A stretch of 51,457 nucleotides of DNA, taken from Deltaproteobacteria bacterium RIFOXYA12_FULL_58_15. GTDB taxonomy: Bacteria; Myxococcota; XYA12-FULL-58-9. How positions within the stretch are numbered: position 1 is the first letter of the stretch; each line of letters opens with the position of its first letter. Positions 16,900-42,555 of this stretch are shown piece by piece. The notes beneath the pieces are model-generated. The model was not told where the DNA came from. It did no database searches and was given only the letters and a program-made list of their open reading frames with translations. Both the position numbers and the translations under genes were made by a program. Location: NCBI GenBank assembly GCA_001798605.1, contig MGST01000067.1, forward strand, positions 1 through 51,457. Reading direction: 5' to 3'.

Positions 16900-18369
16900 T
16901 CACTCGGGCGTCTGCTGCGGTGGTTTCTTCAGGGCTATCGCTGAAGGCGAGCGCAGCTTGCCGAAGAAACGGCCGATCTTTGCCAACACGTAGTGCCAGC
17001 TGAAGCGGAAGACGATGCGCGGATCGAAATAGGGATTTTTGGTCTTTCCTAGCCAGGAAAGATTCAGGACCATCTCGGCAACGCTGACAGTGCAACCACG
17101 AATGCGGATGACCCTTTTCCCAACCGCGAAGATTTGTTCGAAGAAGAACTTGAGAATCTTGCCGACCAGGTCTCCTGCGTGTACCCGCTCGGGGCTGATG
17201 AGCTTGCGCTCCTTATAAAGGAAGGGAATGTCGACGTCCTTGCCGCCGATCTTGCCACACCAACGGGCGCAATCACCAATGAACAGGACCTTCTCTCCCT
17301 GACCCACGTCGATGTCACCCCGGTACGCACCGTAGACCAGATGAATGGGCTTGATGCTGTTCTCGACGTCATCTTCCATCTGGCCAATGATGCCCATCGC
17401 CTCAGTGAGTGCCCCGGGACAACCTCCCCAGCAGTAATCGTAGGTGTCGGGGGGCGGGCCGACGTAAACCTTGAGATTGGATTTGCCGTTGTACTGGGCA
17501 TCGGCCTTGTCCAGGGAGAGCTCGAACCCCTTCGCTCGTCCCTTGGCCTCCTCGAGAGTGACGTCGCCTTCGATGCTGACATCATCGAGTGACAATGATC
17601 CCCAACCGCGCTCGGCGACGATGCGAATGTGGTCCACATCGCGAGGATCGAGGCCCGCAATGTGAGTGCAAACGACATCGGTGGAAACCGCATCATCCCC
17701 GACAATAATGAGCCCGAGGGGGAACGGCTTGGGCGTCAGCATCGTCTTGGCACCAGCGGTGATCGCGTCCATGACGCAAATCTTCGGCTGAATGACCTCG
17801 TAGAGGTCGGCTATCTTGGAGTGCAAATGATGGTCGTGATCGATGAGACGGTGCTCGTCGTCCTGTATGCCGATATAGAGCTTGAGGTTGAAAGTGACCT
17901 TGGTCCACGGATGCGCCTTGAACTTGGGCGCCGAAACCAAGAACTCGGTCTCGGCAATCGCCTCTGGGATATAGATGTAGTCCCTGAGGCGCCCCTCCAT
18001 GTGCAGGTCGCGACGAACCTGAGGCATCTCATCAAAATAACGCGGACGCACGTGATGCTTTCGCATGACCTTGGGATAACCAGCCTCGGCAAAAGCATAA
18101 CGTGTCGGGATGGTGATGCCGCAGCGCTCCCCAAGGGAGAGGTCGGTCATCTCATCGCCACGTTCTTTGAGGGCACCAAACAGGCCATCGAGAAACTCGG
18201 GGCGCGTGAATGCGTGAGGGAAAAAAAGACGATGCGCAATGACGGTATTGGGCTTGACCAGCGTCCTCCCCTGGGGCTTGATCCCAAGCTCGTCCATACT
18301 TTCGCCGATGATGGCGCGAATACGATCGGGATCGTAATCGTCACACCGGCGTAGAATCACTCTTGGCAC
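16900..18369 (-). CDS. DUF362 domain-containing protein
   Basis: The 489-aa protein matches the DUF362 pattern. GRTLVKPNTVIAHRLFFPHA in the N-terminal part and TEFLVSAPKFKAHPWTKVTF followed by NLKLYIG are characteristic, then VMDAITAG and a VSTDVV segment. DUF362 regions often accompany ferredoxin-like domains. Here no CxxCxxC ferredoxin motif is seen, but Cys residues occur in YDYCWGGCPGALTEAM and GDCARWCGKIGG, which could bind metal. The C-terminal 90 residues are basic and hydrophobic without clear membrane segments. Function unknown. The gene is transcribed towards the VWA protein gene, and the two stops form a TGATCA junction. Confidence 0.8.
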   Translation of the reverse strand: MPRVILRRCDDYDPDRIRAIIGESMDELGIKPQGRTLVKPNTVIAHRLFFPHAFTRPEFLDGLFGALKERGDEMTDLSLGERCGITIPTRYAFAEAGYPKVMRKHHVRPRYFDEMPQVRRDLHMEGRLRDYIYIPEAIAETEFLVSAPKFKAHPWTKVTFNLKLYIGIQDDEHRLIDHDHHLHSKIADLYEVIQPKICVMDAITAGAKTMLTPKPFPLGLIIVGDDAVSTDVVCTHIAGLDPRDVDHIRIVAERGWGSLSLDDVSIEGDVTLEEAKGRAKGFELSLDKADAQYNGKSNLKVYVGPPPDTYDYCWGGCPGALTEAMGIIGQMEDDVENSIKPIHLVYGAYRGDIDVGQGEKVLFIGDCARWCGKIGGKDVDIPFLYKERKLISPERVHAGDLVGKILKFFFEQIFAVGKRVIRIRGCTVSVAEMVLNLSWLGKTKNPYFDPRIVFRFSWHYVLAKIGRFFGKLRSPSAIALKKPPQQTPE

Positions 18370-18449
18370 GCTGGTATGATGCGCGTCCCCGGAGGGAAGT
18401 GCAACTGCAAAACCAAAAAGGCAATTCTGCCCTGTGGAGGCTATAGATC

Positions 18450-19334
18450 ATGCGACCATTTTTCAGCTGCTTATCACTTTTCACCCTCTTGCTGTTTGCC
18501 GCAGAATCTCAGGCGCAACCTCGTGCACGGCGACGTGGTCCGCCGCCCGCGCCTCCAGGGCACGTCCAACCGAAGCCCGAACCACCAGACACTGCGGCAA
18601 TTTGTCAATCTCGACAGTCTGTGTTGGCTCAGGAGCAGCGTCGCCTCGACGCCTCGCAGTCAGACCTCGCGGGTGTCGACTCTGAGCTCGAAGCACTCAA
18701 ACAACGCATGGCGCAATTGACCAACGAACGCAATGCTCTGCAACGCCGTATGGACTCGCAAGAACGACGGGTGAGCGCCCTCAAGAAGTCCTACGACAAG
18801 GAATGCACCAAGAACGAAACCTGCGAGCAGTACGAGACCTTGGTCACGACACTCGACAAGCAGTCCTCTGAGGTCGAAAAGGAGATGGCCATCGTCCGCA
18901 CGGACATGACCACCAGCAGAACCGAGATTAACAACCTTCAGCGAGAGATCGATCCACTGCGAACTGAATACGCGTCACTCAAATGCAACGACATGGTGCC
19001 GGGTGAGACTTCACAGGAAACCATCGACCGCTGCGCGGCGATCTTCAGCCAGTGGAATCGTCTGCAGGCGCGAGTGAACCAGCTCAACAGTCGTTTGAGC
19101 GAGCTCAGAAGCCGTTACCAACAGCTCCTGTCACAGCTGCGCAGCATCGAGTCACGCGGCAAAAACTATGAGACCTACCTTGCGAGCAACTGTTCTTCGA
19201 GCGCCAAGCTCGTCACGGTCCGCGGCTACGGCGGCGTGCGCCAGCGAGCTGAGAAGCTCGGCAAAGAGCTCGATGACCTGATCCATGATGCCACCAAGCT
19301 CAGAGGCATCGAGATCACGGTAACTCCCAAATAG
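18450..19334 (+). CDS. Exported coiled-coil protein of unknown function
   Basis: The 294-aa protein has a signal peptide (RPFFSCLSLFTLLLFAAESQ, cut near AQA). A proline-rich linker follows (RRRGPPPAPPGHVQPKPEPP), then a long heptad-rich coiled coil from about residue 55 to 245 (LEALKQRMAQLTNERNALQR is a good sample). Six Cys residues (for example KECTKNETCEQYE and DRCAAIF) are spread along the coil and may form disulfides. It resembles periplasmic EnvC/YibP-like coiled coils in style only; no LytM domain is present. The next gene can start directly after its stop codon, implying a common transcript. Confidence 0.65.
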   Translation: MRPFFSCLSLFTLLLFAAESQAQPRARRRGPPPAPPGHVQPKPEPPDTAAICQSRQSVLAQEQRRLDASQSDLAGVDSELEALKQRMAQLTNERNALQRRMDSQERRVSALKKSYDKECTKNETCEQYETLVTTLDKQSSEVEKEMAIVRTDMTTSRTEINNLQREIDPLRTEYASLKCNDMVPGETSQETIDRCAAIFSQWNRLQARVNQLNSRLSELRSRYQQLLSQLRSIESRGKNYETYLASNCSSSAKLVTVRGYGGVRQRAEKLGKELDDLIHDATKLRGIEITVTPK

Positions 19335-20093
19335 TTGAGAGCGGCGAGGTCCGGGCTGAGCTCGGGCCTCGCTGCCATTCTCTTGTCACAAGCAACAGGC
19401 AGAACAGTCGTCTCCTTTCCTACAGTGGAGGCGCTCGGGAATCTTTGGCGAGAGGTCAATGCCAGACCTTTGTGGTCTCGCCCTAACTTCTGGCGTTGGC
19501 TGCAATTGCGTCGGCGTATGCATTTGCGCCTCATTCCCTTCGAGGGAGTGCGAATCTTGGCCCCCGCCGGCAAGATCAACGACTGCTCCTGTTGCAGTGA
19601 CATCTGTTGTGTCGGCCCGCGCTCGACAGTCCTTCTGCGACTCAAAGACATTGCCACACTGTTGGACCTGGGACGCTCAGATCTGTTGACCACCCAGAAA
19701 CCGCGCTTTGGCGAAGACGAACAGTTGTCCCACCCGGCGTTGCGACGCCACCTAGCCAGTGACGCCTGGCACACCTTCCCCGTACTTCGCCAGGACTCCA
19801 TGGGCGCTTGCGCGGCTCTCAGCCGCTCTGGGCAATGCTCCCTCTATCCACACTGGCCGCTCTCTTGCGCTCGTTTCCCCTATTCTCTACACGCGGACGA
19901 ACGTGAGGTGTTCTTCAGCAAACGGTGCGAGTCATACTGGATTCGCCCCGGCGTGGATCAACGCATCGAGAAAATGGCTCGGGCCGCCGTCGAAAGCTAC
20001 AACGAGCGAATCCGCGATGCCGTATTGCTCGAGTATGCGAGAGACCGCTTAGGGCAAATCGGGCTGCTGCCGTTCCTTGCTGAACAACCATAG
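19335..20093 (+). CDS. YkgJ-type cysteine-cluster protein (putative Zn/Fe-binding)
   Basis: The core carries the cysteine pattern of the YkgJ/CxxCxxCC family. It shows NDCSCCSDICCVGP, then CAALSRSGQCSLYPHWPLSC followed by ARFPYSLH, then CESYW, with RLKDIA between the two halves. Members are proposed to bind zinc or iron; no catalytic role is established. The frame begins with TTG at 19335 immediately after the preceding stop. No ribosome binding site supports it, and the true start may be further in (for example ATG 19518, which keeps all the Cys). The N-terminal 60 residues are therefore doubtful. Confidence 0.65.
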   Translation: MRAARSGLSSGLAAILLSQATGRTVVSFPTVEALGNLWREVNARPLWSRPNFWRWLQLRRRMHLRLIPFEGVRILAPAGKINDCSCCSDICCVGPRSTVLLRLKDIATLLDLGRSDLLTTQKPRFGEDEQLSHPALRRHLASDAWHTFPVLRQDSMGACAALSRSGQCSLYPHWPLSCARFPYSLHADEREVFFSKRCESYWIRPGVDQRIEKMARAAVESYNERIRDAVLLEYARDRLGQIGLLPFLAEQP

Positions 20094-20095
20094 TC

Positions 20096-20140
20096 CTCCG
20101 GAAACTCCGGAACCTCTGGAACCCCCGGAACCCCCGATCC
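20096..20140. repeat. Five imperfect 9-base tandem repeats
   Basis: Units CTCCGGAAA, CTCCGGAAC, CTCTGGAAC, CCCCGGAAC and CCCCGATCC follow each other directly after the stop of the YkgJ-type gene. This looks like a simple-sequence expansion in a short intergenic stretch. Confidence 0.8.
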
Positions 20141-20216
20141 GCGATTGACATTCGCATCAAAGCAGTGGGATTGTTTGATGTTGGGAAGATTTCACGAGCT
20201 CGGAGAGATTTCCTTC

Positions 20217-21824
20217 ATGCGGATTCTGCCCTTCGTGTTGCTTTGCTCGATGGCGTCGCCAGTTGCGGCACAAACCCCGGGTGTCCTGGCTTCAACGGAT
20301 TCCAACACCAACCGCAAGGCCCAAGCAAGCGTGTCGTCGCCCTCTGCCACTTCTAACAAGGGTACCCGCGGCGTGCACCGAGTCGAAGCCGCGACGGCAC
20401 ACCCCACCGGCGATATCATTCTGGTCGTTGGTGCGCAGTACTCCTACAACACTGGGCTGTTCACCGCGGACGACACCAACGAAAATCACGCCCAACACCT
20501 CACGGTGGTGTGGGCGCCCATTGACCACCTCGAGCTTCGGTTGCGCCAGTCGACGGTGTCGAATCGCAATGACGCGTTTTTGCCATCCACCACCCAAAAT
20601 CTCGGCGACCCCACCGTGGGTCTCAAGTTCAGCTATCCGCTGATGGCGGAGCTCGGTATTGGTGCCGATCTCGCATTCATGCTGCCGACATCAGCGAAAG
20701 GGACCGGCCTCAACGCTGGGGCGTTCGTGCTCGAAGCCAACGCCATCGTCTCCTACGTGCCGATGCCCTGGCTCGGGGTGCACCTCAATGCTGGATATCG
20801 CCTCGACAACACCAAGGAGATCTTCAAGCGAGACCTCCTGCCAGTTCAGCGGTTCACTGCAGGTATCTCGCAGGATAACCTCATCCTCGCAGGTCTCGGA
20901 GTCGACACCTCTTTTCTGGTTGGGAAAGAAATGACGGCAGGCGGATTTGCTGAGTTCCACGCCGGTCTTGCCCCAGAGTTTGATGAAAGCCCAATCCGCG
21001 CAACGGTGGGCGGGAAATGGTTGCCCTTTGGCGAAAACGCGGTCGACGTGGTGGTAGGTGCTGATTTCGCTGTGGCTGGCACCCCGACGAAGAACGCAAC
21101 CATGGCGGGAATTCCAGCATGGGAGGCCTTTGGCCAGATTGCCGCACACCTCAATCCGCCTGAGACACTCGTCGCTGCAGTGAGCGGTCCAGCCGGATGT
21201 ACAACCCAAGCCCAATGTGAACAGAACCAGCAGTGCGTCGACGGCTACTGCCATTGGGTGCAAAAGGTCATCGAAGAGAAAGAGGTCATCAAAGAGGTCC
21301 CGATACCTTCCTTCTCCATCAAGGGCGGAGTCTTCAACAAGGCTTCGGGAGATCCCCTCAACTATGCCACCCTGACATTCAGCGGTGTCCCAGGCAGCGC
21401 CCTGGCGGTGGATTACAAGACCGCGACCTTTGAGTCGTGGCCGCTGCCCAGCGGCGAAGGGTTGGTGAAGGTCGTGGCTTCAGCGCCCGAATGCACTCCC
21501 TCAGAACAAATGGTCAACAAGGGCAAAGCCGGCGACGTCAAAGAGATCGTCTTCAAGCTGCAATGCGGTGTTGCCATCGGCGAGATCAAAGGCAGCCTCA
21601 AGGACGCCCGCACCGGCAAGCCGGTGAAGAACGGACAGATCTTCATTCCAGCCCTCAAACAGAAGATCAAGACTGACGACGATGGCAAATTCAGTGCTGA
21701 GGTGAAAGCCGGCAAACATCAGATCCTCATCTCGGGAAAGAAGTACGGCACCCAACGCAAAGAGATCGAAATAAGAGCTGGCGACGTCGTCATCCTCAAC
21801 ATCGATATGGACAAGGGACGGTAA
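20217..21824 (+). CDS. Outer-membrane barrel-like protein with Cys motif and two carboxypeptidase-regulatory-like domains
   Basis: The start is ATG 20217 (GGAGAG nine bases upstream), giving a signal peptide (RILPFVLLCSMASPVAAQ). An upstream ATG would place that signal internally. Of 535 aa, about 40-340 read as a beta-barrel (many short amphipathic strands such as DIILVVGAQYSY and LGVHLNAGYRL). A short Cys motif follows (CTTQAQCEQNQQCVDGYC), then a charged linker (EEKEVIKEVPIP). The C-terminus has two Ig-like regulatory domains, the second containing IGEIKGSLKDARTGKPVKNG. The arrangement suggests a barrel with a folded periplasmic or surface appendage. It precedes a FecR-domain lipoprotein by 47 bases. 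Confidence 0.65.
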   Translation: MRILPFVLLCSMASPVAAQTPGVLASTDSNTNRKAQASVSSPSATSNKGTRGVHRVEAATAHPTGDIILVVGAQYSYNTGLFTADDTNENHAQHLTVVWAPIDHLELRLRQSTVSNRNDAFLPSTTQNLGDPTVGLKFSYPLMAELGIGADLAFMLPTSAKGTGLNAGAFVLEANAIVSYVPMPWLGVHLNAGYRLDNTKEIFKRDLLPVQRFTAGISQDNLILAGLGVDTSFLVGKEMTAGGFAEFHAGLAPEFDESPIRATVGGKWLPFGENAVDVVVGADFAVAGTPTKNATMAGIPAWEAFGQIAAHLNPPETLVAAVSGPAGCTTQAQCEQNQQCVDGYCHWVQKVIEEKEVIKEVPIPSFSIKGGVFNKASGDPLNYATLTFSGVPGSALAVDYKTATFESWPLPSGEGLVKVVASAPECTPSEQMVNKGKAGDVKEIVFKLQCGVAIGEIKGSLKDARTGKPVKNGQIFIPALKQKIKTDDDGKFSAEVKAGKHQILISGKKYGTQRKEIEIRAGDVVILNIDMDKGR

Positions 21825-21871
21825 CGATCACGGGCGAAAGCGAGGTTGCCTAAGGCGAGGTGTGGGCAAAA

Positions 21872-23863
21872 ATGAGCGGCCTGTCGACAAGAAAACGATT
21901 GAGTCTTTGGCTGACACTGTTGTTGTCACTCTGCGCCTTGGCACCTTATGGTTGCCAAGATGCCGTCAGCGCCGTGGCGCATGTCCGCGCAGTGAAGGGC
22001 GACGTCACCTGGAAGATCAACGACGAAGGTGCACCGCAGCCAGCCGAGCCAGAGGTCAGTTTGCCTGAGGGTAGTCTGGTTATTACCCAAGAGGGCACCG
22101 CCCAGATCGAGTTCGCCGGTGGAAACTTTCTCGACCTGCAACCCAACACGACCTTGGTAATCCGCAAGGCGGGCGGTACGGCTGCTCAGTTTGGCGCTGT
22201 CCTTCTCTCTGGAAACGCAACGGCTTCTTCAAAAGGCCGTGGAGTCCTGTTGGCAATTGGCACGCCATTCGGCCTGACCGAATTCGGCACCCAAGAGCTG
22301 TCGTTCGAAATCAGCCACCTAAACGGCCTGCACGTCCTCATCGGCGAGGTGTCCGTGATCGACGCTGGTGGCCAGAGGACAACTTTGGGAGCGGGCGACG
22401 ACTTTGTCATTCCCGGCGTCACCGTGGTTCTTCGACGCTGTTCAGCCGACAGTGATTGCAAGGACAACGAGGCCTGTGACCTGGAGACATCTCACTGCAT
22501 TCTCAAACTCGAGCCAATCCAGTTCGTCCTCCTCGCCAATCCCCAACAGGTGCAAGTTCTCCGTGCGGGTGAATCCACGTGGCGATCACCTAAGAAGCGC
22601 GACTTTCTCGCTAGAGGTGACATGGTGCGCACGCGCAAGGCGAGCACCACACAGATCCAGCTCGGCGACGTCGCCGAGCTGAAGCTCAGGCCGCAAACCC
22701 AGATGATCCTCAATGATGCGGGTCTCAGCAAAGAAAGCCACCGAGCAAAGTATGGCTTGGAGAGCGGTAGCGTCCTCATCCACGTCGACCAGAACTCCGA
22801 AGTCGGTGCCAGGCACGAGCTCGAAGTTGCCGGCCTCGTCATGAAAGTGGAACCGGGGCTCAAGGAAGCGACGGTGGAAGTGAATGCCCCAACAAAAGAC
22901 AAGGCCCAAATCAAGGTTCACTTCGGCCGGGCGACACTGTCTGACGGCACCGTTGTTGAAGCAGGGCGCGCCGTCACCATCGAGAAGGGCGTGGTCATCA
23001 CCACGTCCGCGCCCTTGGCTGTCACGGGTGTCGAGCTCAAGCCCAAATCGAGCTCAATCATCTATTACACGAGCTCGATCCCACCGATCCTCTTCAACTG
23101 GAAAGCAGAAGAGGGTGCCGAGAGTTACGAGCTGGAAATCGCAAAGGATCGAGATTTCGACAAGCGAGTATTCCGTGAGAAAGTGAGCACCAATTCCTTC
23201 GTGCATGAGCGATTCCCGGCGGGTCGTTTCTATTGGCGTGTCAAAGGCACGGGCAACTGGATTCGAGGTATGCTCTCGGTTGAGAAGAAAACCGACAACA
23301 CCAACCAGCCCAAACACCACAACAAAGTCGTCGATACTGGCGAAAAGACCGTCATCTATTACCAGAAGGCTCTCCCAGACCTGACCTTCACCTGGAAAGC
23401 CGTCGAGGGTGCGACCCAATATCGTCTGCGCATCTACCCCGACGGCGAGTTTGACAAGCCCATGGTGGAACAAGAATCGGCAGAAAACACCAAGTACTTC
23501 GCAAAGGGTAGATTCCCAGAGGGAAAATATTTCTGGCAACAGTCGGCGCTGGCTGCTGACGGCTCCGAGCTCAAGACTGGCAAGATGAACACCTTGCAGA
23601 TTGCCTACGACAATGCCATCACCGACCTCGACGTCAAGAGTCCCAGGCCAGATATGAGAACCCGTAGCAAGACCGTTTCGACCTATGGAGAGCTGCAACT
23701 GGGAGCCAAGTTGTCGATCAACGGAAAGCGGGCTGGCCTCGACAGCAAAGGCCGGTTCCGGGAGGTGATTCCGCTCAACAAAGGCAACAACCAGATTGTC
23801 TACACGACCATTTCCTCTGACGGTATCGAGAGATTCTACGTTCGCAATGTCACCCGACATTAA
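21872..23863 (+). CDS. FecR-domain envelope protein with two Ig-like repeats
   Basis: The ATG at 21872 is preferred to a GTG at 21860, because the AGGCGAGG site lies 11 bases before it. The 663-aa protein starts with a hydrophobic signal ending APYGC, possibly lipidated though the lipobox is imperfect. It contains a FecR-like domain (VRAVKGDVTWKIN ... FAGGNFLDLQPNTTLVIR), a Cys motif (CSADSDCKDNEACDLETSHC), a second FecR-like region (LRAGESTWRSPKKRDFLARG ... ELKLRPQTQMIL), and two fibronectin-like repeats. Each repeat starts with the same phrase (IIYYTSSIPPILFNWKAEEG; VIYYQKALPDLTFTWKAVEG). FecR domains in myxobacteria are usually extracytoplasmic binding domains, not anti-sigma factors. The kinase gene begins 19 bases downstream. 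Confidence 0.75.
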   Translation: MSGLSTRKRLSLWLTLLLSLCALAPYGCQDAVSAVAHVRAVKGDVTWKINDEGAPQPAEPEVSLPEGSLVITQEGTAQIEFAGGNFLDLQPNTTLVIRKAGGTAAQFGAVLLSGNATASSKGRGVLLAIGTPFGLTEFGTQELSFEISHLNGLHVLIGEVSVIDAGGQRTTLGAGDDFVIPGVTVVLRRCSADSDCKDNEACDLETSHCILKLEPIQFVLLANPQQVQVLRAGESTWRSPKKRDFLARGDMVRTRKASTTQIQLGDVAELKLRPQTQMILNDAGLSKESHRAKYGLESGSVLIHVDQNSEVGARHELEVAGLVMKVEPGLKEATVEVNAPTKDKAQIKVHFGRATLSDGTVVEAGRAVTIEKGVVITTSAPLAVTGVELKPKSSSIIYYTSSIPPILFNWKAEEGAESYELEIAKDRDFDKRVFREKVSTNSFVHERFPAGRFYWRVKGTGNWIRGMLSVEKKTDNTNQPKHHNKVVDTGEKTVIYYQKALPDLTFTWKAVEGATQYRLRIYPDGEFDKPMVEQESAENTKYFAKGRFPEGKYFWQQSALAADGSELKTGKMNTLQIAYDNAITDLDVKSPRPDMRTRSKTVSTYGELQLGAKLSINGKRAGLDSKGRFREVIPLNKGNNQIVYTTISSDGIERFYVRNVTRH

Positions 23864-23882
23864 TTGTTGGTAGGATCGCCAC

Positions 23883-25886
23883 ATGGTCGTAGACTCCCCA
23901 GTCACTCAGAGCCCCAGCGGCTTGGTGGAGATCCGTTGCACCTCCTGCAATCGGTCGTTTCGCATCGACGCCGCTTGGACCGAAAACGTCAGCGCCGCCC
24001 GCTGCGTGTGCGGAGCTCGGCTCGCCCTGAGGGGTGAAGACGCATTGACGCCCCCCGGTACTCAACGATTGGGTAAATACCTCCTGCATCAACGCATCGC
24101 TGTCGGCGGCATGGGCGAGATTTTCTATGGCAAGATCGCCGGCGTTGAGGGCTTTGAGCGCGAGGTGGCCATTAAAAAAATGTTGCCTCACTTGTCGGAG
24201 GACCGGGGCTTCATCGGCATGATGGTCAAGGAGGCCAAGCTCACCGTTCTCTTGCACCACCCCAACATCATCCAAGTCTTCGACCTCGCGCGGCAAGGCA
24301 ACGAATATTACATCGCCATGGAGTACGTCCCAGGGGTGACGGTTGCCCACCTCCTGGAACTGTCTCACAAGAGCCGATCGATGTTGCCCTATGAGGTCGT
24401 GATCTACATGGTCATGCAAGTCCTGCGCGGCCTTGCGTACGCCCACGACTTGCGTGGGCCAACCGGCGAGCCGATGAATGTCCTTCATCGCGACATCACG
24501 CCACAGAACATCATGGTCACAGCGGATGCGTGGGTGAAGATTGCCGATTTCGGTATAGCCAAAGCGCGCAACGAGATCTCGACCACCAGCCCCGGCATGA
24601 TCAAGGGCAAACTCGGCTACATAGCCCCCGAACAACTATCCGGTAGCCAGCCAGATCAGCGCCTCGACATTTTCTGTGCGGGAATTCTTCTTTGGGAAGC
24701 CTTGGCGACCAAACGCCTGTTCAAAGGTGCCGATGAGATCGACACGTTCCGGTTGATTACCGAGTGCAGGATCCCTCCCCTCTCCAAATACCGTGACGAT
24801 GTGCCGCCAGAAATCGAGGAGGCGGTACGAGGAGCGTTGACCCGAGACCCCAACCAACGCTACCGCACCGCCGACCAGTTCTACGACGCGCTCAATCAGG
24901 CCATCTTTCCCAGCACAGCCGACGATTTTGCCAGCATCGCCAGGCGCTATTTCGCGGCTCATCAGGAATACTTCTCTGGCGTCGTCAAGCGAACCGAGAG
25001 TCTCAAAGATGCCGAAAGCCTCGATGATGAGGTCACCGAGGAGATGGAGGTCACCAGCACACCGCTGGATGAGCTCGTCGAAGTTACGGATCTCCTCCAC
25101 CCGCCCAAGAAGAAATCACGCAAGGGCTTACTGTTTCTGTTGGCAGCGATGGCCGTGGCGCTGCTCGGCGTCGTGGGTTGGGCAGTCGCCGACAGATTCC
25201 TGACCCACGCTGACACCTCCGACAGCACACCAACGCCAGTCTTCAATGCGCTTACCCAAGAAGAGGTACAACTCGCAGTCAATGGTGAGCGTCAACGGTT
25301 TCTCGAGTGTTACAACCGTGGCGACAAGAGATTCCGCAAGATTGCCGAGCTCAGCGCGCGGTTGGTGATTCCCTCAACAGGCGGTGTTGCCGAGGTCGGG
25401 CTTTCACCGCCGAAGGCAGAGTTGGGCCAAGTCGGTCCGTGCGTCGAAAACCTCCTCGCAGGCCTGAAGTTCCGTTCTCACGGTGCTCCGGTTGTCACCA
25501 CCCAAGTCAGCCTGCCGGCACCGCTCGATTCCGTGCCGCCGCCGGATGTCAAACCGCCGACACCAGCCCCAACACCAGCCTCTATGCCAGCGGCCCCGCC
25601 AAAGCCCCTCACGGGGAACGAGATCCAGGCGGCAGTGCAGAAGAAATACGGTGCTATCACCAAGTGCATTGATGACCTCGCGGATGTCCAAAGCGCTCCC
25701 AACAACGTCAGCGCCACGATAACCATCGGCACCAACGGCCGCGTCTCTCAGGTGACGTTTGCTCCCAGCGTGGGCACAGACTCGGTCGAACAGTGCCTGC
25801 GCCGCACCTTGAAATCCCTGCGACTGCGTCCTCAACCCGTGGACGATTTCAAAGTCTCGATCCCACTGAAAATCACCCAGATCTGA
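23883..25886 (+). CDS. Transmembrane Ser/Thr protein kinase with two PglI/AgmX-like C-terminal domains
   Basis: The 667-aa kinase has three parts. First is an N-terminal zinc-ribbon-like motif (CTSCNRSFRID ... CVCG, Cys 19, 22, 41, 43). Second is a protein kinase domain (about 66-340) with the Gly loop IAVGGMGEIFYG, the ATP lysine in VAIKK (K98), HRDITPQN (202-209), DFG (222-224) and APE (248-250). Third, after a transmembrane segment (about 415-437), are two tandem domains of similar layout. Each has a Cys pair with near-equal spacing (C476/C520 and C595/C638), separated by a Pro-rich linker, and matches the PglI/AgmX C-terminal pattern. Cytoplasmic phosphorylation driven by the periplasmic part is the natural inference. 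The FHA gene lies 32 bases downstream. Confidence 0.9.
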   Translation: MVVDSPVTQSPSGLVEIRCTSCNRSFRIDAAWTENVSAARCVCGARLALRGEDALTPPGTQRLGKYLLHQRIAVGGMGEIFYGKIAGVEGFEREVAIKKMLPHLSEDRGFIGMMVKEAKLTVLLHHPNIIQVFDLARQGNEYYIAMEYVPGVTVAHLLELSHKSRSMLPYEVVIYMVMQVLRGLAYAHDLRGPTGEPMNVLHRDITPQNIMVTADAWVKIADFGIAKARNEISTTSPGMIKGKLGYIAPEQLSGSQPDQRLDIFCAGILLWEALATKRLFKGADEIDTFRLITECRIPPLSKYRDDVPPEIEEAVRGALTRDPNQRYRTADQFYDALNQAIFPSTADDFASIARRYFAAHQEYFSGVVKRTESLKDAESLDDEVTEEMEVTSTPLDELVEVTDLLHPPKKKSRKGLLFLLAAMAVALLGVVGWAVADRFLTHADTSDSTPTPVFNALTQEEVQLAVNGERQRFLECYNRGDKRFRKIAELSARLVIPSTGGVAEVGLSPPKAELGQVGPCVENLLAGLKFRSHGAPVVTTQVSLPAPLDSVPPPDVKPPTPAPTPASMPAAPPKPLTGNEIQAAVQKKYGAITKCIDDLADVQSAPNNVSATITIGTNGRVSQVTFAPSVGTDSVEQCLRRTLKSLRLRPQPVDDFKVSIPLKITQI

Positions 25887-25918
25887 GCTGATACTTTTGT
25901 CGATGGCCCGTTGTTGCT

Positions 25919-26473
25919 ATGTTGCACGGCGGTATGGCTCGCCTCTACGAGTTTGTTATCCCCGTGCGCAAGCAAACACGGCAGGAGTTTGCCAAGGCAA
26001 ATCCCCATTTGTTTCTCTTGATGCAACGCCCCGAGCAAGAGAAAGGTACCTGGACATTCAAAACCCTGACTCTCTCCATGAAGGGGGCAAAGATCGCAAA
26101 ATTCGCCGCTGACGAAGACATCAGGCTCCTCCCAGAAATCGCCGAGTTTGACGTTTTCCCCGTCGTCAAGGCGGCCGACAGCCCTTGGCCCGAACGGATT
26201 AGCGTCGGCCGCGCCCGCAACAACGACATCGTCCTTCCGGATAGCTCGGTATCAAAGCTACACGCTCATTTCATTACCGAAAACGACAGATATTGCGTCG
26301 TCGATGCCAACTCCCACAACGGCACAACCATAAACGAGCACAAGCTGGAATCCGGCAAGGTGACAGACGTCAATGTGGGTGATTGCATTACATTTGGCAG
26401 GAGTATGGTGAGGCTTCTCCTGGCCACCGACCTTTACGATCTGGTGGCGAAACACGTTGAGGAGAAGCAGTAA
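25919..26473 (+). CDS. FHA domain protein
   Basis: The 184-aa protein carries a C-terminal FHA phosphothreonine-binding domain. Key residues are SVGRARNNDIVLPDSSVSK (Gly-Arg, Asn-Asp-Ile and Ser of the binding loops), HAHFI and SHNGTTIN (the Asn-Gly that contacts phosphothreonine). The N-terminal 90 residues (ARLYEFVIPVRKQTR and following) are not recognised. Its place directly behind a Ser/Thr kinase suggests it reads the kinase's phosphorylation. The start may be 25919 or the in-frame ATG at 25934; neither has a strong ribosome binding site. Signal-transfer partnership is inferred from synteny. Confidence 0.85.
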   Translation: MLHGGMARLYEFVIPVRKQTRQEFAKANPHLFLLMQRPEQEKGTWTFKTLTLSMKGAKIAKFAADEDIRLLPEIAEFDVFPVVKAADSPWPERISVGRARNNDIVLPDSSVSKLHAHFITENDRYCVVDANSHNGTTINEHKLESGKVTDVNVGDCITFGRSMVRLLLATDLYDLVAKHVEEKQ

Positions 26474-26549
26474 CTGCGCATATGAATAGGGTTGGAATAG
26501 ACACGTCCAAGGTAGCGTACGTTTTTGTCGGTGGAAATGGAGAACCGAG

Positions 26550-27668
26550 ATGAGGCTCCACAGTTTGCTTTCCTTTGTGGCATTTGTTTTTTTGAGCAGC
26601 CAGGCCCACGCAGCCGCCAAACTGGCAATGACACAGGGCCAGGTATGGACACAGGCACCAGGGGCCGCAGAAAAGTCAGCCAAAACTGGCGATGAGCTCG
26701 CCGCGGGCACCCAGATTCGCACGGGCAAATCGAGTAGCACCGAAGTAAGGTTTGAGGATGGCTCACTGCTTAAGGTGCGACCAGAGTCGTCCTTGAAACT
26801 ATCGGGCAATAAACGGCAGAAGAACAAAAGCTCGGTGTTGCTCTTTTTTGGGCGCGTGTGGAGCAAGGTCACCAAGTCGGTGGGCAAGGAAACGACGTTC
26901 GAGGTCAACACCCCCAATGCCGTATGCGGTGTTCGTGGCACCGAGTTCGAGACCGCCGTGGCTGACGACGGCTCGGTTCGCGTGCGAGTCACCGAAGGCA
27001 GTGTCGGCGTTGGTGCCGATGACCCTGACACAGAGGTGGCCGCCGGACAGGAAATCGCCGGCGATGAAGAGGGCGTAGATGAAACCTACGACGCCGAGGA
27101 ACAGGCGAAGTGGGAGATGTGGGAAAAACAGAAGAAGGAACGTTTGCGCAAGGGCGGCCGCGGCATTGTCGACAAGGTCAAGGCCAACATCATGACCCGT
27201 AAACAGGCCCTGGAAACCCTGCGCAAACAACAACAGGATATAGAGACCAAGCGCAAGGCTGCTGAAAGTCGCGCACGCAGTGGCGACAAAGCCGCGATGG
27301 ATGAAATCCGCAACTACAATCAACAACTCGGTGCCATAGCCGATCAGATCGCCGACCTGGGAGATCTCGCCGAGAGTCAATTCGGTATCGTCGACCACTT
27401 CGCCGACCTCGCTACCGATCCCCGCTTCAAAATGGTCGACCGCAAATACTTGGAAGCAGAAGCCGAGAGCTTGCGGCGCGTGAAGAAGACCCTCGACAAG
27501 TTGGTATCCGAAGGCACCGATATCTCCATCGAAGCCATGGACAAGATGCTCGACGACATGGGCAAGGGAGAAGGCGGCTTGCGCGACGACGATTCCGCCG
27601 CCGATGACCTGTTCGGCCCTGGTAAGAAGAAAAAAGGTGGCAGCGGAAAAGATCCCTTCGACTTCTGA
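26550..27668 (+). CDS. Exported FecR-domain protein with coiled coil
   Basis: The 372-aa protein has a signal peptide (RLHSLLSFVAFVFLSSQAHA). A FecR domain at about 23-165 contains GTQIRTGKSSSTEVRFEDGS and TPNAVCGVRGTEFE, the latter being the recurrent signature of bacterial FecR domains. An acidic linker and a long coiled coil follow (about 180-330, for example RKQQQDIETKRKAAESRARS), then a charged tail with GKKKKGGSGKDPFDF. It resembles the FecR lipoprotein upstream in the first domain but lacks the Ig-like repeats. It lies between the FHA gene and the chemoreceptor-like gene, all in one direction. Confidence 0.8.
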   Translation: MRLHSLLSFVAFVFLSSQAHAAAKLAMTQGQVWTQAPGAAEKSAKTGDELAAGTQIRTGKSSSTEVRFEDGSLLKVRPESSLKLSGNKRQKNKSSVLLFFGRVWSKVTKSVGKETTFEVNTPNAVCGVRGTEFETAVADDGSVRVRVTEGSVGVGADDPDTEVAAGQEIAGDEEGVDETYDAEEQAKWEMWEKQKKERLRKGGRGIVDKVKANIMTRKQALETLRKQQQDIETKRKAAESRARSGDKAAMDEIRNYNQQLGAIADQIADLGDLAESQFGIVDHFADLATDPRFKMVDRKYLEAEAESLRRVKKTLDKLVSEGTDISIEAMDKMLDDMGKGEGGLRDDDSAADDLFGPGKKKKGGSGKDPFDF

Positions 27669-27752
27669 CCTACGCTATCCGAAGACTCTGGTCCCCACTC
27701 CCCACCCTTGCTATACGTCGCTCCCGTGGTGTTAGAGTAGCGTCCTCAGCAT

Positions 27753-27760
27753 GGGAGGAG
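27753..27760 (+). promoter_or_regulatory. Ribosome binding site fixing the chemoreceptor GTG start
   Basis: GGGAGGAG ends six bases before the GTG at 27767, which supports that unusual start codon. Confidence 0.8.
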
Positions 27761-27766
27761 TGGGCA

Positions 27767-29467
27767 GTGCCCCCAAACGACAACAAACCCCTCATCACTG
27801 GCGTCCCCAACGTTATCCTCGTTGTGGGAGGCATTCTTCTGGCTGGCTTGTTGGTCGCCAAATACTTTGCCACACCAGGCGATGTCTCAGAGGAGCAGCT
27901 GCTGCTGATCGACGGCGCAATTAACAATGTGTTCTGGACGGCGCTTGGGAGCTCATTGATTGCAGTGCTCGTGCTCGCGGTCAAAATGCGGCGAGACACC
28001 TCAGCAGGCGTAGATATTGGCCCATTCGTGCAACTGTTGGCCACCGGGGACGTGGCTCGCGCCACCGCCCTGGCGGGCGAACAGGGACAGCTGACTCCCG
28101 CCGTTGAAAACGCCCTGCGGCAAATCAGCGAAAGACACAGCGCCTCCAGTGATGCCTCGGGTTTGCGCCTGCGGGCACTCGAGCACATCGGCACTGCCAC
28201 AACCAGTCTTGGTGAGTCCTTGCAACAACAGAATGGGGCGATCGTTGCCCTCAAGGTCTCCTGTGAGGCCAGTCGCGACTTCTTCTCAAGCGTGGCCCGC
28301 AGCATCGAAGGCCTGTCGCGCAGCTCCGAAGAAACTTCATCCAGCATCCTAGAGATGGTGGCGATCAACAACGAGGTCTCAGAGAACATCCACAACCTCG
28401 CCCTCAGCGTTCAAGAGACAACCACAGCGATCGAAGAGATGACCTTCTCGGTCAAAGAGGTGGCTCGCAACATCGAAGACCTCAGCACCGCCGCAGAGGA
28501 AACGGCGGCTTCCATGAACCAGATGGACGTCTCGATCAGTCAGGTCGAGACCAACGCCAATGAAACCTCCAGGCTGTCAGAGACGGTGACCAGCGACGCA
28601 GAAACTGGCGTGGCCGCCATCAACCGCACCATTCAAGGTATTGATCGCATCAAGGAATCGAGCCGCGGCGCAGCCGTGGTCCTTGGCAACCTCGGCGAAA
28701 AGATCGACGAGATCGGCAACATCCTCACCGTCATCGATGACGTTGCCGAGCAAACCAACCTCTTGGCCCTTAACGCTGCGATCATCGCCGCGCAGGCTGG
28801 CGAGCATGGGCGCGGGTTTGCGGTTGTCGCCGACGAGATCAAAGCGTTGGCCGAGCGCACAGGAGCCTCAACCAAGGAAATCGCTGATCTCATCAAAACG
28901 GTTCAGTCTGAATCGCGCAACGCCATCGCCACCATGTCGAAGGGCGTTGAAGCTGTCGAAGAAGGTGTGCGTCTTGGACACAACGCCGAGGAAGCACTGA
29001 TGAAGATCGTGGAGTCCGCAAAACGCTCCACCTTGATGATCAAGGCCATCGCCCAAGCCACTGTAGAGCAGGCCAAGGGCTCAAAACAGGTAACCAACGC
29101 CATCAGCCGAATCGCGGAGACAGTGCAACAGATCGCGTTAGCTACTTCGGAGCAGGCCAAGGGCTCAGAACAGATCATGAAAAGCGCCGAGCGGATGCGT
29201 ACCATTACGCAACAGGTCGAGCGCAGCACCGAAGAGCAGAACCGTGGTGGTCAGCAGGTCACCGAGGCGATGGAGAACATTCGCGATATCGTCGAACGGG
29301 TCACGGCCGACCAGGATCGCTACACCAACGCCGCGGGCAAGATGGACAATGCATCCGCACAGGTTGTAGCCAACTCCGAGAGAGCGAGAGAGACGCTCGA
29401 CGAGATCGAGAAGAATTTGGCCCAGATGCTCGCTTCCCTCGACGCCAAAAAAGCCCGGGTCGGCTAG
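27767..29467 (+). CDS. Methyl-accepting chemotaxis protein without a sensor domain
   Basis: The 566-aa protein has two membrane segments (about 13-33 and 53-73) joined by a loop of only about 20 residues, so no periplasmic ligand domain is present. A cytoplasmic helical region follows without an evident HAMP domain. The long signalling coiled coil has the hairpin tip DVAEQTNLLALNAA, then GEHGRGFAVVADEIKALAER, which is the CheA/CheW contact. Repeated AxEQAKGSxQ segments (VEQAKGSKQVTNAI, SEQAKGSEQIMKSA) near the C-terminal arm contain likely methylation-type Gln/Glu sites. Input presumably comes from the membrane or cytoplasm. The tatA/B gene starts 14 bases after it, so they may share a transcript. 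Confidence 0.9.
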   Translation: MPPNDNKPLITGVPNVILVVGGILLAGLLVAKYFATPGDVSEEQLLLIDGAINNVFWTALGSSLIAVLVLAVKMRRDTSAGVDIGPFVQLLATGDVARATALAGEQGQLTPAVENALRQISERHSASSDASGLRLRALEHIGTATTSLGESLQQQNGAIVALKVSCEASRDFFSSVARSIEGLSRSSEETSSSILEMVAINNEVSENIHNLALSVQETTTAIEEMTFSVKEVARNIEDLSTAAEETAASMNQMDVSISQVETNANETSRLSETVTSDAETGVAAINRTIQGIDRIKESSRGAAVVLGNLGEKIDEIGNILTVIDDVAEQTNLLALNAAIIAAQAGEHGRGFAVVADEIKALAERTGASTKEIADLIKTVQSESRNAIATMSKGVEAVEEGVRLGHNAEEALMKIVESAKRSTLMIKAIAQATVEQAKGSKQVTNAISRIAETVQQIALATSEQAKGSEQIMKSAERMRTITQQVERSTEEQNRGGQQVTEAMENIRDIVERVTADQDRYTNAAGKMDNASAQVVANSERARETLDEIEKNLAQMLASLDAKKARVG

Positions 29468-29481
29468 CGCCGGTTTTGCCA

Positions 29482-29778
29482 ATGTTTGGTCTCGGCATTT
29501 GGGAGGTTGTGGTGATCTTGGCAGTCGCCCTGATCGTCATGGGTCCCCGCAGACTCCCCGACGCGGGCAAGCAGCTTGGTCGGGCTCTACGTGAGTTTCG
29601 CCGCGCCACCAACGAGCTTAGATACAACCTCGAAGAGGCCGCCGCTGAGCCAAGGCGGCGCCCAGTTGCCGATGACCCCGATACTCAATCGAAGGAGGTG
29701 ACCAGAACAGCACAGAGTGCCATCGGTCCAACAGAGGCACCCCTGGCAACCCCCCCGGACGATTCCAAAACCCCATGA
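29482..29778 (+). CDS. Twin-arginine translocase TatA/TatB subunit
   Basis: The start is the ATG at 29482 (MFGLGIWEVVVIL); a TTG six bases upstream is less likely. The 98-aa protein has one N-terminal membrane helix, the hinge MGPRRLPDAGKQLG with the Gly-Pro typical of TatB and TatA, and an amphipathic helix (RALREFRRATNELRYNLEEA). A charged, disordered tail follows. The helix begins with Glu (WEVV), a position more TatB-like. Assignment between TatA and TatB is not settled. It overlaps tatC by four bases (ATGA), giving tight translational coupling. The complex exports folded proteins with RR signals. Confidence 0.9.
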   Translation: MFGLGIWEVVVILAVALIVMGPRRLPDAGKQLGRALREFRRATNELRYNLEEAAAEPRRRPVADDPDTQSKEVTRTAQSAIGPTEAPLATPPDDSKTP

Positions 29779-30539
29779 CCGACCAAGATGCACAGACCCC
29801 GGAACCGGGGAGAATGAGTCTCTTCGAGCACCTTGATGAGCTGCGACGTCGACTCATTGCCTGCGTCGTCGTCATGGGAGTGTGCACAATAGTCTTGTTC
29901 AGCCTTGCGCCGAACTTGTTCAAGTATTTGCGCCGGCCCCTCGACGCCATCGCAGCCAATGGGCTGATGCAGCTGCAGGTGCTAAGCCCCCTGGAGATGT
30001 TCCTCACCTACCTCAAGCTTGCAGTCCTCGGGGCATTGTTCGTGTCGGCACCTTGGATCCTGCTGCAGGTGTGGATGTTCGTCTCGCCAGGCCTGTACAA
30101 GAACGAAAAGCGATGGATCCTCCCGTTTGTTTTCTTAGGCACCGCCTTCTTCATTGGCGGCGCTGCTTTTGGATATTTCCTGGTACTCCCTCTCGGCTTC
30201 GATTACCTGGTGAGTTTCACCCCTGCAGAGGTTACCAACGCCTGGTCCGTCGAGAAGTACTTCTCGATTGTTACCCGTTTGCTCCTCGGGTTTGGTGTCG
30301 TGTTCGAGGTTCCCCTGTTGATGTGGATCCTCTCGGCAGCGGGTATCGTGCAGCCCAAGTCCTTTTCCAAATTCCGCAAATACTGGATTGTCTTGGCGTG
30401 GATCATCGGCGCCATCCTCACCCCACCTGACCCCTTTACCCAAGCAATGATGGCTGTGCCATTAATGATCTTCTTCGAGGTGGGCCTGCTCGGTGGCAGG
30501 TTACTCTACCGCCGCCGCCAGGACGCCGCCTTCAAATAA
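29775..30539 (+). CDS. tatC: Sec-independent protein translocase TatC
   Basis: The 254-aa integral membrane protein has the six-helix TatC layout. It begins with SLFEHLDELRRRLIACVVVM, where HLxELRxR is the twin-arginine-signal recognition region. PLEMFLTYLKLA, WILLQVWMFVSPGLYKNEKR and FGVVFEVPLL, then ARILTPPDP-like AILTPPDPFTQ, are the other classic motifs. TatC is the receptor for RR signal peptides in the Tat complex. It overlaps the upstream tatA/B gene by four bases and ends three bases before the 3' end of the convergent RNase P RNA gene. Confidence 0.95.
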   Translation: MTDQDAQTPEPGRMSLFEHLDELRRRLIACVVVMGVCTIVLFSLAPNLFKYLRRPLDAIAANGLMQLQVLSPLEMFLTYLKLAVLGALFVSAPWILLQVWMFVSPGLYKNEKRWILPFVFLGTAFFIGGAAFGYFLVLPLGFDYLVSFTPAEVTNAWSVEKYFSIVTRLLLGFGVVFEVPLLMWILSAAGIVQPKSFSKFRKYWIVLAWIIGAILTPPDPFTQAMMAVPLMIFFEVGLLGGRLLYRRRQDAAFK

Positions 30540-30542
30540 AGA

Positions 30543-30950
30543 GCTCATCGGAGTGGGCCTGTAAGCCGAGTTCTGTCCCAGCGAAGCTGGTGACGATCAT
30601 TCATCTAGGCATACGGTTGCCCGCACACTCGAGCTGCCTACCCGAGCCCCAATCAACGGGCCGTTGACGCGAGGCAAGCCTCGCCGGGGCTCCTATTTGG
30701 CATTGCTCCGGGTGGGGTTTTCCATGCCGGTCAGTGTCGCCACGACCGCGGTGCGCTCTTACCGCACCTTTTCACCTTGACCACCTCACGTCCCAAAAGA
30801 CGCTACGGATGGCCGTCTGCTCTCTGTGGCACTATCCGTCGAGTTGCCTCGCCTGGCCGTTAGCCAGCACCCTGCCCTGTGGAGCTCGGACTTTCCTCCC
30901 GCTCCCAACCGAGGTTGAAAACCAGCGATCGCCCGGCCCACTCCGATGAG
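30543..30950 (-). ncRNA. rnpB: RNase P RNA, bacterial class A
   Basis: On the minus strand the RNA begins CTCATCGGAGTGGGCCGGGC and ends GGCCCACTCCGATGAG. These two ends pair as helix P1. Conserved core elements are present: GGAGGAAAGTCCGAGCTCC near the 5' side, AGGGCAGGGTGCTGGCTAAC, GGTAAGAGCGCACCG in the middle, and ACAGAACTCGGCTTACAGGC at the 3' side. It is the catalytic subunit that matures tRNA 5' ends. Ends are set by the P1 pairing and could shift by a few bases. Open frames inside this stretch are not genes. Confidence 0.95.
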
Positions 30951-30988
30951 CCGACGGCAAATTAGCAGAATGTACCGAAAGCCGAAAG

Positions 30989-31016
30989 GGCGTGTTCTCT
31001 TTGGCGTGTTCTATTT
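30989..31016. repeat. 14-base tandem duplication across the RNase H stop
   Basis: GGCGTGTTCTCTTT (30989-31002) is followed at once by GGCGTGTTCTATTT (31003-31016). One base differs, and this creates the minus-strand TAG stop at 31011-31013. It looks like a local duplication at the 3' end of the RNase H-like gene. Confidence 0.7.
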
Positions 31017-31607
31017 GGCCAAATCGATGGCGAGGTTGGCTTGGGTGTCTGCAACCGCGTTCTGTCCATGGGGCACCTGACGCACTTCGAATCGGCGAAA
31101 CAGCTGCATCAAGTCGCGGGCGGTGCTGTGCATCCGCGCCAAGCGGTCATTGGATACACGGCACTTGCCGTTGATCTGCCGCACCAACAGATCGCTGTCG
31201 GAACGTAGCGCCACGTCGATTGCGCCCAGGGCATGGGCGGCCTGCAACGAACGGACCACCGCCTCATACTCCGCCTCGTTGTCCGTGCGATCGCCGAGGA
31301 ATGCGTTGCCCTCTTGCAGAATGTCCTGGGGGCCATGGATGACCCACCCGGCACCAGCCGGCCCAGGGTTCCCGCGGGAGGCACCAACAACATACACCTC
31401 GACCCTCAGGGCATCATCTCTTGCCCCAGCAGCTATCGCCTCCGCGTGCTTGGGTGAACGGACTTCGTCGGCCACCGCCCTCAAAGAGGAGCGAATGTGA
31501 TCCTCACTCAAATAGGGAAACTCATCGCAGGTAATGTGGAGGGACTCGTGTTCGGCTATGAACCGAATGAGCTCACAAGCATCAGGTACCTTGCGCCGGC
31601 GGGTCAC
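31011..31607 (-). CDS. RNase HI-like protein with altered first catalytic residue
   Basis: The 198-aa protein has an N-terminal segment of about 65 residues followed by an RNase H fold. VYVVGASRGNPGPAGAGWVI (71-90) is the first strand, but residue 74 is Val where the family has the catalytic Asp (DGASRGNPG). The other three expected residues are in place: E113 (TDNEAEYEA), D137 (RSDSDLLVRQI) and D187 (NAVADTQAN). E. coli RNase HI loses activity when the first Asp is replaced, so activity is doubtful. It may bind RNA/DNA hybrids without cutting, or use another residue. The gene start overlaps the upstream zinc-ribbon gene by four bases. N-terminal residues have no recognised domain. Confidence 0.85.
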   Translation of the reverse strand: MTRRRKVPDACELIRFIAEHESLHITCDEFPYLSEDHIRSSLRAVADEVRSPKHAEAIAAGARDDALRVEVYVVGASRGNPGPAGAGWVIHGPQDILQEGNAFLGDRTDNEAEYEAVVRSLQAAHALGAIDVALRSDSDLLVRQINGKCRVSNDRLARMHSTARDLMQLFRRFEVRQVPHGQNAVADTQANLAIDLAK

Positions 31608-40729: not shown

Positions 40730-41755
40730 CTACTCCTTGCCACGAATCAAAGTCGATGGGTCCTGTGCAATGATGCGACTGAACTCGCGCACGTACTCCG
40801 CCGCCTGACGCAAGTCGGCCAGCGCCGCAATGAAGTCCTCGCGTCCGGCGCGAACGGTCAGATCCGTTGACTCGATGAGCGTGGTCATGTCGTCGAGAGT
40901 CTTCACCATTCCCGCCATGGCCAAACGCAGATCCTGACTGGACAGCCGTTCATCGAGACTGCTCATGGCCTTGCGCGTGGAGGTCACCGCCCCCGCGAGC
41001 TCGTCGGGATCAATCTTGCTCACTGGGCGCTTAAGATCTCTCAGGGCGGTGCGAGTCTCTTCAAGGGTCTTGGTGATCTCCGCGGTCACCGTCTTGAGCG
41101 AACGGTCGCCTTCTCGAGTGAGACCGGCGACCGCGTCGCCGGCCTTGGCCACACCGCCGAGCGCATCCTTGAGGGGCTCCCGGTTGGTCTCAAGGAACCG
41201 GTCGAGCTCGCGAGCAAGGGCGGTGGTGGAATCAATGAGACTTTCGATTCGCTCCCGGTTCTCATCTTTGGTCCAGTCCGCCAATCGGTTGGCGACAAGC
41301 TCTACCTTTTTGGCGATGTCCTCCGCCTGCCCGGTGATCCTGCCCATAAACGACTCACCGGCCTCGAGTTGGGCACCGGGAGGAATGCGAGGCTTCTTGG
41401 GATCCCCAGCCGCGAGGTTGATGGTCTTGAGACCGGTCAAGCCGCTCTGCGCCATCACGGCCTTGGTTCCCTCGTAGAGAACCGTACGGGGATTAAGCTT
41501 GAGGGTTACCTCGATGACCGCTGGATCGTCGGGGGCAATCACCAAATCGGTGACAGTTCCCACTCGCAGGCCCTGGTACTTGACTGGCGCGCTCACCTCG
41601 AGGCCGCCCACCTCCTCGGTAAAACGGACGGTGTAGAAATCGTTCTTTTCCCAAATCTTGAGGCCGGCAAGGACCAGCACCGCTCCCGCGAGCAACATCG
41701 TGCCGGTCACCATGAATGCGCCAAGCCGAACCTTTTGTGCCCTGTTGAGGTTCAC
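40730..41755 (-). CDS. MlaD-like MCE domain protein
   Basis: The 341-aa protein has one N-terminal membrane helix (LGAFMVTGTMLLAGAVLVLA) followed by the MCE domain (about 39-130). The MCE domain includes YTVRFTEEVGGLEVSAPVKY, VGTVTDLVIAP and SGLTGLKTINLAAG. A long helical region follows (for example RIESLIDSTTALARELDRFL and onwards). MCE proteins form hexameric rings that shuttle lipids across the periplasm. The long C-terminal helices resemble those of PqiB-/YebT-like or Mce proteins, which could build a tube. It overlaps the ATPase gene by four bases. Confidence 0.9.
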   Translation of the reverse strand: MNLNRAQKVRLGAFMVTGTMLLAGAVLVLAGLKIWEKNDFYTVRFTEEVGGLEVSAPVKYQGLRVGTVTDLVIAPDDPAVIEVTLKLNPRTVLYEGTKAVMAQSGLTGLKTINLAAGDPKKPRIPPGAQLEAGESFMGRITGQAEDIAKKVELVANRLADWTKDENRERIESLIDSTTALARELDRFLETNREPLKDALGGVAKAGDAVAGLTREGDRSLKTVTAEITKTLEETRTALRDLKRPVSKIDPDELAGAVTSTRKAMSSLDERLSSQDLRLAMAGMVKTLDDMTTLIESTDLTVRAGREDFIAALADLRQAAEYVREFSRIIAQDPSTLIRGKE

Positions 41756-42552: not shown

Positions 42553-42555
42553 CAC

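Follow-up and report, generated by a model that had tools for sequence, protein, structure and literature searches.

A McpJ-type chemoreceptor encoded in front of tat genes as a candidate input of a Che8-type pathway in Myxococcota

A run of codirectional genes encoding an outer-membrane barrel candidate, two FecR-domain proteins, a Ser/Thr kinase, an FHA protein, and a chemoreceptor raises the question of whether these parts form one sensing system, and to which pathway the receptor at the end of the run reports. The run lies in a stretch of 51,457 nucleotides (hereafter the window; contig MGST01000067.1 of Deltaproteobacteria bacterium RIFOXYA12_FULL_58_15), which belongs to contig C67 in a draft genome of 6.37 Mb (G000). 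The reading favored here, with a probability of about 0.6, is that the receptor (MCP) is a McpJ-type receptor in a tat operon that would act as the input of a Che8-type pathway with a private array, an envelope module having been added in front of it. The genes at 20217-29467 would then be the front part of a tat operon. Genome searches covered Myxococcota, with a phylum sample of 193 genomes from 31 families (f1, f2, and so on) and an order-level sample of eight genomes (G000-G007).

All six open reading frames at 20217-29467 are open and codirectional with gaps of 35, 19, 32, 76, and 98 bp, in agreement with the reading first made from the sequence alone (the sequence-only reading), which had reported six such genes with gaps of 19-98 bases. 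Its domain calls of two FecR proteins, a Ser/Thr kinase, an FHA protein, and a chemoreceptor without sensor domain are likewise matched by Pfam. It had ended the unit at 29467 and overlooked the tat genes, which continue the run: the MCP stop lies 8 bp from the start of TatA/B, a shorter distance than the 98 bp between the receptor and FECR2, and TatA/B overlaps tatC by 4 bp. With tat joining at 8 bp and -4 bp, the six genes as a closed unit were ruled out. Upstream of BARREL, the CC and CxxC genes are also read in the same direction. Ten homologues from CC to TatC are collinear and codirectional in G001, which belongs to another genus of the same family; the gene order is therefore not due to chance, and its supposed conservation beyond the species held. 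Separate promoters or terminators between the genes, which would have spoken for independent units, were not seen: no plus-strand promoter-like or terminator-like site occurred within the intergenic gaps, and the nearest terminator-like site lies past tatC. Such sites were no commoner than in shuffled sequence on both strands of 18300-31200 (promoter-like, 1 vs 3.6; terminator-like, 11 vs 13.6), though scans of this sort are no proof of a single transcript. The proteins of the cluster were ruled out as Tat substrates, their N termini being without a twin-arginine motif.

Across myxobacteria, the receptor in front of tat is the most widely conserved part of the arrangement, though far from constant. 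TatC was present in 177 of 193 genomes. A codirectional receptor was found upstream in 15 of 40 tatC loci inspected (L052-L091), and 8 of the other 25 have less than 2.5 kb upstream. The DNA pattern of the tip variant described below occurred in 124 of 193 genomes, while the reversed control pattern occurred in 0. Among the matches listed, 59 of 70 genomes with tip and tatC carry the tip variant codirectionally and less than 10 kb upstream of tatC; the 11 remaining comprise 8 with tip and tatC on different contigs and 3 with more than 500 kb between them. These 3 genomes have a second receptor before tatC, in which Asp replaces the last Glu of the pattern, and they are included in 20 further tatC neighbourhoods inspected with 5-6 kb upstream, 9 of which have a receptor. 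Linkage extends to at least 13 of 31 families (f1, f2, f3, f6, f8, f10, f13, f17, f18, f19, f21, f26, and f29). In the inspected loci of f1, f2, f6, f18, f26, and f29, about 1-126 bp separate receptor and tatA (starts extrapolated from alignments), and at four f8 loci the receptor stop falls about -23 to +2 bp from tatC, i.e., abutting. A literature search, with most subscription journals outside its reach, found no paper on receptor-tat linkage in Myxococcota, and the accessible part of a paper on Tat structures draws no receptor link (PMC13323110). As a separate observation on these loci, the TatC match falls into two separated pieces in L086, L088, L089, and L090, indicating a large internal insert, and a large insert is described for TatC of Myxococcus xanthus (PMC13323110). 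The match is also in two pieces in L055-L058 (f7), split elsewhere, which suggests a different insert.

The receptor stands out by its signalling tip. The tip segment aligns as NAAIEAARAGE in Thermotoga 2ch7 and NAAIIAAQAGE in the window MCP, which is thus without the Glu/Arg pair of the tip ionic lock and has Ile and Gln instead. The two changed positions correspond to Tsr E385 and R388; the homologous residues are said to form ionic locks between the dimers that make up a trimer (PMC8144572). Both residues are replaced (Ile/Leu and Gln) in 20 of 20 tat-linked loci other than the window (one locus contributing two of the 21 rows, and L042 breaking off at a contig end inside the receptor gene), and likewise in 9 of 9 receptors of the further tatC neighbourhoods. 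Elsewhere in G000, receptors at C351 and C107 also carry Ile/Leu and Gln, while the receptor at C69 is canonical. When 31 signalling domains were placed on a tree, the tat-linked receptors needed two label changes against a shuffled mean of 8.6, with 0 of 500 shuffles as low; two changes are needed because the long-branched C351 receptor falls inside. An altered tip of this kind would be expected to prevent mixed trimers between such receptors and canonical ones and so to set up a private array.

A candidate partner pathway is encoded at C42 of the same genome, where the order CheY-CheA-CheW-CheW-(response regulator + HEAT)-CheR-CheB was found without an MCP match in that stretch. G000 has 6 CheW-domain matches, with CheA and two CheW at C42. 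The same gene order, again without an MCP match, occurs in G001, G003, G004, G007, G010, G011, and G049, the last of which appears to be Myxococcus-like. The che8 cluster of M. xanthus comprises MXAN_4751-4759, and the published gene table lists no receptor there (PMC3945109); che8 is also reported from Anaeromyxobacter and Geobacter (PMC2330069). The assignment of C42 to Che8 rests on gene content, gene order, and 36-56% identity to L104 of a Myxococcus-like genome; the portions of the literature consulted give no experimentally assigned receptor for Che8.

With the CheA of C42 as query and Che8-type CheA defined by E<=1e-115, 33 of 58 relatives had a match and 25 did not. The tip pattern was found in 31 of the 33 genomes with Che8-type CheA and in 0 of the 25 without (p=2e-14). 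The figures were 31 of 33 vs 0 of 5 among genomes with at least three CheW matches (p=4e-5), and 12 of 13 vs 0 of 11 when counted by family. G017, G023, G029, G051, and G056 have at least three CheW matches and neither Che8-type CheA nor the tip pattern, although a 47% CheA fragment of G056, outside the threshold, may be a Che8 fragment. G005 and G006 lack both a CheW match and the tip pattern, and in neither is tatA directly preceded by a receptor (0.8 kb only being present in G006). From this co-occurrence, observed like the linkage and the tip, the MCP would most likely be the transmembrane input of the Che8-type pathway whose cluster lacks a receptor in G000, binding CheW8 and controlling CheA8. 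The notion that the tip makes the receptor independent of CheA was ruled out, the pattern occurring only alongside Che8-type CheA in the 58 genomes; the same tip in a Che7 receptor was ruled out as well, as the receptor in the L105 cluster (taken to be Che7) retains Glu and Arg. At L101 and L103, from two f8 genomes (G009 and G018), the Che8 cluster has a receptor of its own between the second CheW and the HEAT protein, and these receptors keep the Ile of the tip with Gly or Ala at the second site.

The receptor class is represented in M. xanthus by McpJ (MXAN_5907), an orphan receptor. MXAN_5907, MmrA (MXAN_5906), and TatB/C (MXAN_5905-5904) correspond to the receptor-MFS-TatA-TatC layout of L088, and TatABC is given as MXAN_2960 and MXAN_5905-4 (PMC3924187). 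McpJ was assigned to Che7/Che8 by phylogeny, is expressed, and is seen, as Mcp7 is, in one or two subpolar clusters (PMC3945109); neither tat linkage nor a tip change is mentioned in the sections of that paper available. The window MCP, codirectional before tatA/B-tatC and with its tip free of the Glu-Arg lock, would accordingly count as a McpJ-type receptor, while it differs from McpJ (723 amino acids, with HAMP) in being 566 amino acids long, in having no HAMP match, and in standing behind the kinase/FecR module.

Several observations weigh against a Che8 input tied to tat. Tip variants were found away from tat too, including those at C351 and C107, and the tip class is therefore wider than the tat-linked genes and not tat-specific. 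The tat-linked receptors are not a single clade and were grouped as one in no bootstrap tree. The p values overstate independence because the genomes share ancestry, and the CheA threshold of E<=1e-115 was chosen after the list had been seen, excluding a match in G005 (38%, 2e-101) and the 47% fragment of G056. In two genomes, G016 and G054, Che8-type CheA is present but the exact tip pattern is missing. The inspected loci of f3, f10, f13, f17, f19, and f21 have 0.6-5.7 kb between receptor and tat, often filled with unrelated genes, and the linkage may be inheritance alone.

A possible but unlikely alternative is that the receptor, the kinase module, and tat have unrelated functions and are merely co-expressed from an old shared transcription unit. 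It would fit the variable intervening genes of several families (MFS, carbon-nitrogen hydrolase, histidine kinase, DUF885, and unassigned genes), the 10 of 20 further tatC neighbourhoods that have no receptor in the 5-6 kb upstream (1, in G124, could not be judged), and the lack of FECR1 and full-length KIN in G003 and G005. The deletion of mcpJ, which caused no defect in the M. xanthus assays used (PMC3945109), counts on the same side and, like the neighbourhoods without a receptor, also weighs against the Che8 input. However, the receptor-tat linkage recurs in at least 13 families although the genes between turn over, and in f8 the receptor abuts tatC itself, both of which speak against co-expression alone.

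The Che8 reading could be extended to a receptor whose bare transmembrane (TM) helices sense either the proton motive force or the state that the Tat translocase is in, a step we regard as rather doubtful. The linkage to tat and the build of the window MCP agree with it: two TM-like stretches at 13-31 and 52-70, about 20 residues apart, and no recognised sensor domain among the Pfam matches. The sensing parts vary, however, as 5 of 11 tat-linked receptors scanned carry HAMP and many are longer than the window MCP; of all the steps, a direct tie of the receptor to Tat transport is the least secure. It is quite improbable that a receptor made together with Tat informs Che8, via a private array, of export load or proton motive force, that Che8 in turn sets folding capacity (groESL), and that the FecR-kinase part adds an outer-envelope signal. 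CheA8 and CheA7 of M. xanthus are held to phosphorylate the response regulator MXAN_4468, which represses groESL by strengthening HrcA repression, while the function of Che8 was otherwise little known as of 2022 (PMC9040617). If true, folded-protein export and chaperonin supply would be coupled by a chemosensory pathway. The link between receptor class, tip, Che8, and tat in many myxobacteria gives a concrete candidate receptor for Che8 and a reason to look at Tat or envelope signals for this pathway. The tip change also offers a rule, readable from sequence, by which receptors could be assigned to arrays, and it lets the role of the ionic lock in array membership be tested.

The genes in front of the receptor are conserved within the order in a modular way, and it is in this order that the additional kinase module was seen. 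G001 has CC-CxxC-BARREL-FECR1-KIN-FHA-FECR2-MCP-TatA-TatC, and G002 has FECR1-KIN-FHA-FECR2-MCP with a contig end on either side. Shorter versions are CxxC-FECR2-MCP-TatA-TatC in G003, DUF362-CxxC-FHA-FECR2-TatA-TatC without a receptor between FECR2 and tatA in G005, and CxxC-BARREL-FECR1-KIN in G006, where tat lies on a separate contig and no receptor is seen in the 0.8 kb before tatA. In G004, CxxC-BARREL-FECR1 is followed after about 6 kb by KIN-FECR2-MCP and after 5.7 kb by TatA-TatC. G007 has FECR2-MCP-TatA-TatC, with FECR1 and KIN on different contigs and no barrel found beside FECR1. FECR1 and full-length KIN are both present in G000, G001, G002, G004, G006, and G007 and both missing in G003 and G005; by our own arithmetic, the random odds of a match so clean (6 both, 2 neither) are 1 in 28. 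FHA relatives, defined as matches at E<1e-30, occurred only in G000, G001, G002, and G005 of the eight genomes. G005 thus has FHA without full-length KIN, and G004, G006, and G007 have full-length KIN with weaker FHA matches (5e-16 or worse). As its distribution differs from that of KIN, FHA does not track KIN and was ruled out as its fixed partner, so that the proposed co-occurrence of a FecR-kinase-FHA trio stood for FECR1 and the kinase and failed for FHA. FECR2 is near full length in 7 of the 8 genomes and occurs also in G011 and G008 with one stop inside the matched frame; it was additionally scanned once against wider genome contigs, where the named relatives were Myxococcota metagenome-assembled genomes.

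The sequence-only reading had proposed an envelope-sensing chain in which extracytoplasmic FecR modules act on the kinase via the domains it has outside the membrane, FHA recognises phosphothreonine, and the chemoreceptor may be a downstream or parallel output. That chain is partly supported, by the joint retention of FECR1 and KIN, the position of BARREL beside FECR1 in G001, G004, and G006, the intact kinase motifs, the well-scoring FHA domain, and the order kept in family f1, but as a whole it is improbable, since neither FHA nor the receptor tracks KIN: the receptor follows Che8 and tat, and stays with tat in G003, where full-length KIN, FECR1, and FHA (E<1e-30) were not found. In the Che8 reading, the envelope module before the receptor would consist in this order of the outer-membrane barrel, the FecR lipoprotein, and the kinase with GltJ/TonB-like domains beyond the membrane, completed by FHA and the secreted FECR2. 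BARREL, FECR1, and the KIN tail would probably be one sensing unit acting across the envelope, and FECR2 may belong closer to the receptor and Tat. No paper describing the FecR, kinase, and FHA arrangement was found in the literature search.

The individual parts bear out these assignments to different degrees (coordinates and domain matches are given in the table). BARREL has homologues in G001 (53%), G004 (44%), and G006 (28%). Its identity as a barrel, claimed from the sequence, is weakly backed by the predicted structure, in which long strands follow in a run and the C-terminal domains are modelled better, at a mean pLDDT of 52 (low confidence); the CarboxypepD_reg_2 match adds to it. FECR1 has a cysteine behind a hydrophobic N-terminal stretch, in a lipobox that is not textbook. 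FECR1 and FECR2 share the FecR domain of anti-sigma regulators, but have signal-like N termini, no other TM-like stretch, and no anti-sigma match, and no sigma gene was found among the ten parts; because of these N termini and the missing cytoplasmic part, they are not anti-sigma FecR proteins. FECR2 also matches the spirochaete LipL45/Lsa33 models NF033165 and NF047849, though far under the curated cut-offs (59 vs 350 and 76 vs 420).

KIN begins with an N-terminal region of zinc-finger-like CxxC and CxC pairs, has a single TM-like stretch (417-435), and carries two AgmX/PglI (myxo_SS_tail) stretches at its C terminus (NF033768, 57.5 bits vs a cut-off of 40). Its catalytic Lys, HRD, DFG, and APE are invariant in 6 aligned sequences. 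GltJ/AgmX of the gliding machinery has the same layout of zinc-finger-like N terminus, TM, and AgmX/PglI, is not known to carry a kinase domain, and stands among gliding genes. KIN differs by a Ser/Thr kinase domain between finger and TM, and no gliding-gene family scored above its cut-off among the ten parts. Two further long KIN paralogues (53% identity) lie at G000:C133:42289-44193 and G000:C236:45353-46987, with no FecR1 or barrel matches in the flanks inspected.

Table. Coordinates and assignments of the ten genes from CC to TatC in the window
Gene	Start	End	Strand	Assignment	Support
CC	18450	19334	+	probably secreted coiled-coil protein	signal-like N terminus by eye; coiled-coil matches; G001 homologue 42%
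CxxC	19335	20093	+	CxxCxxCC-type protein	PF03692 E=3e-4, under cut-off
BARREL	20217	21824	+	probable outer-membrane barrel, C-terminal CarboxypepD_reg domain	PF13715 (CarboxypepD_reg_2)
FECR1	21860	23863	+	probable FecR-domain lipoprotein	PF04773; Glucodextran_B
KIN	23883	25886	+	Ser/Thr kinase	PF00069 (Pkinase); NF033768
FHA	25919	26473	+	FHA protein without TM	PF00498 5e-17
FECR2	26550	27668	+	probably secreted FecR + coiled-coil protein, LipL45/Lsa33-like	PF04773 4e-18
MCP	27767	29467	+	two-TM chemoreceptor, tip NAAIIAAQAGEHG	PF00015 (MCPsignal) 2e-46, 158 bits vs cut-off 34.6
TatA/B	29476	29778	+	TatA/B	tatAE and tatB models, both slightly under cut-offs
TatC	29775	30539	+	TatC	PF00902 4e-71; TIGR00945 above cut-off

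The CxxC gene was found at the locus in G001, G003, and G005 and adjoins the barrel gene in G004 and G006. Directly upstream of BARREL, at 20095-20136, the window contains a short tandem array of 4.7 copies of a 9-bp unit, CCTCCGGAA. Farther along, the minus strand at 40730-43617 carries an apparent Mce/Mla-type lipid transport set (MlaD-like protein, ABC ATPase, and permease), judged by eye from the translations.

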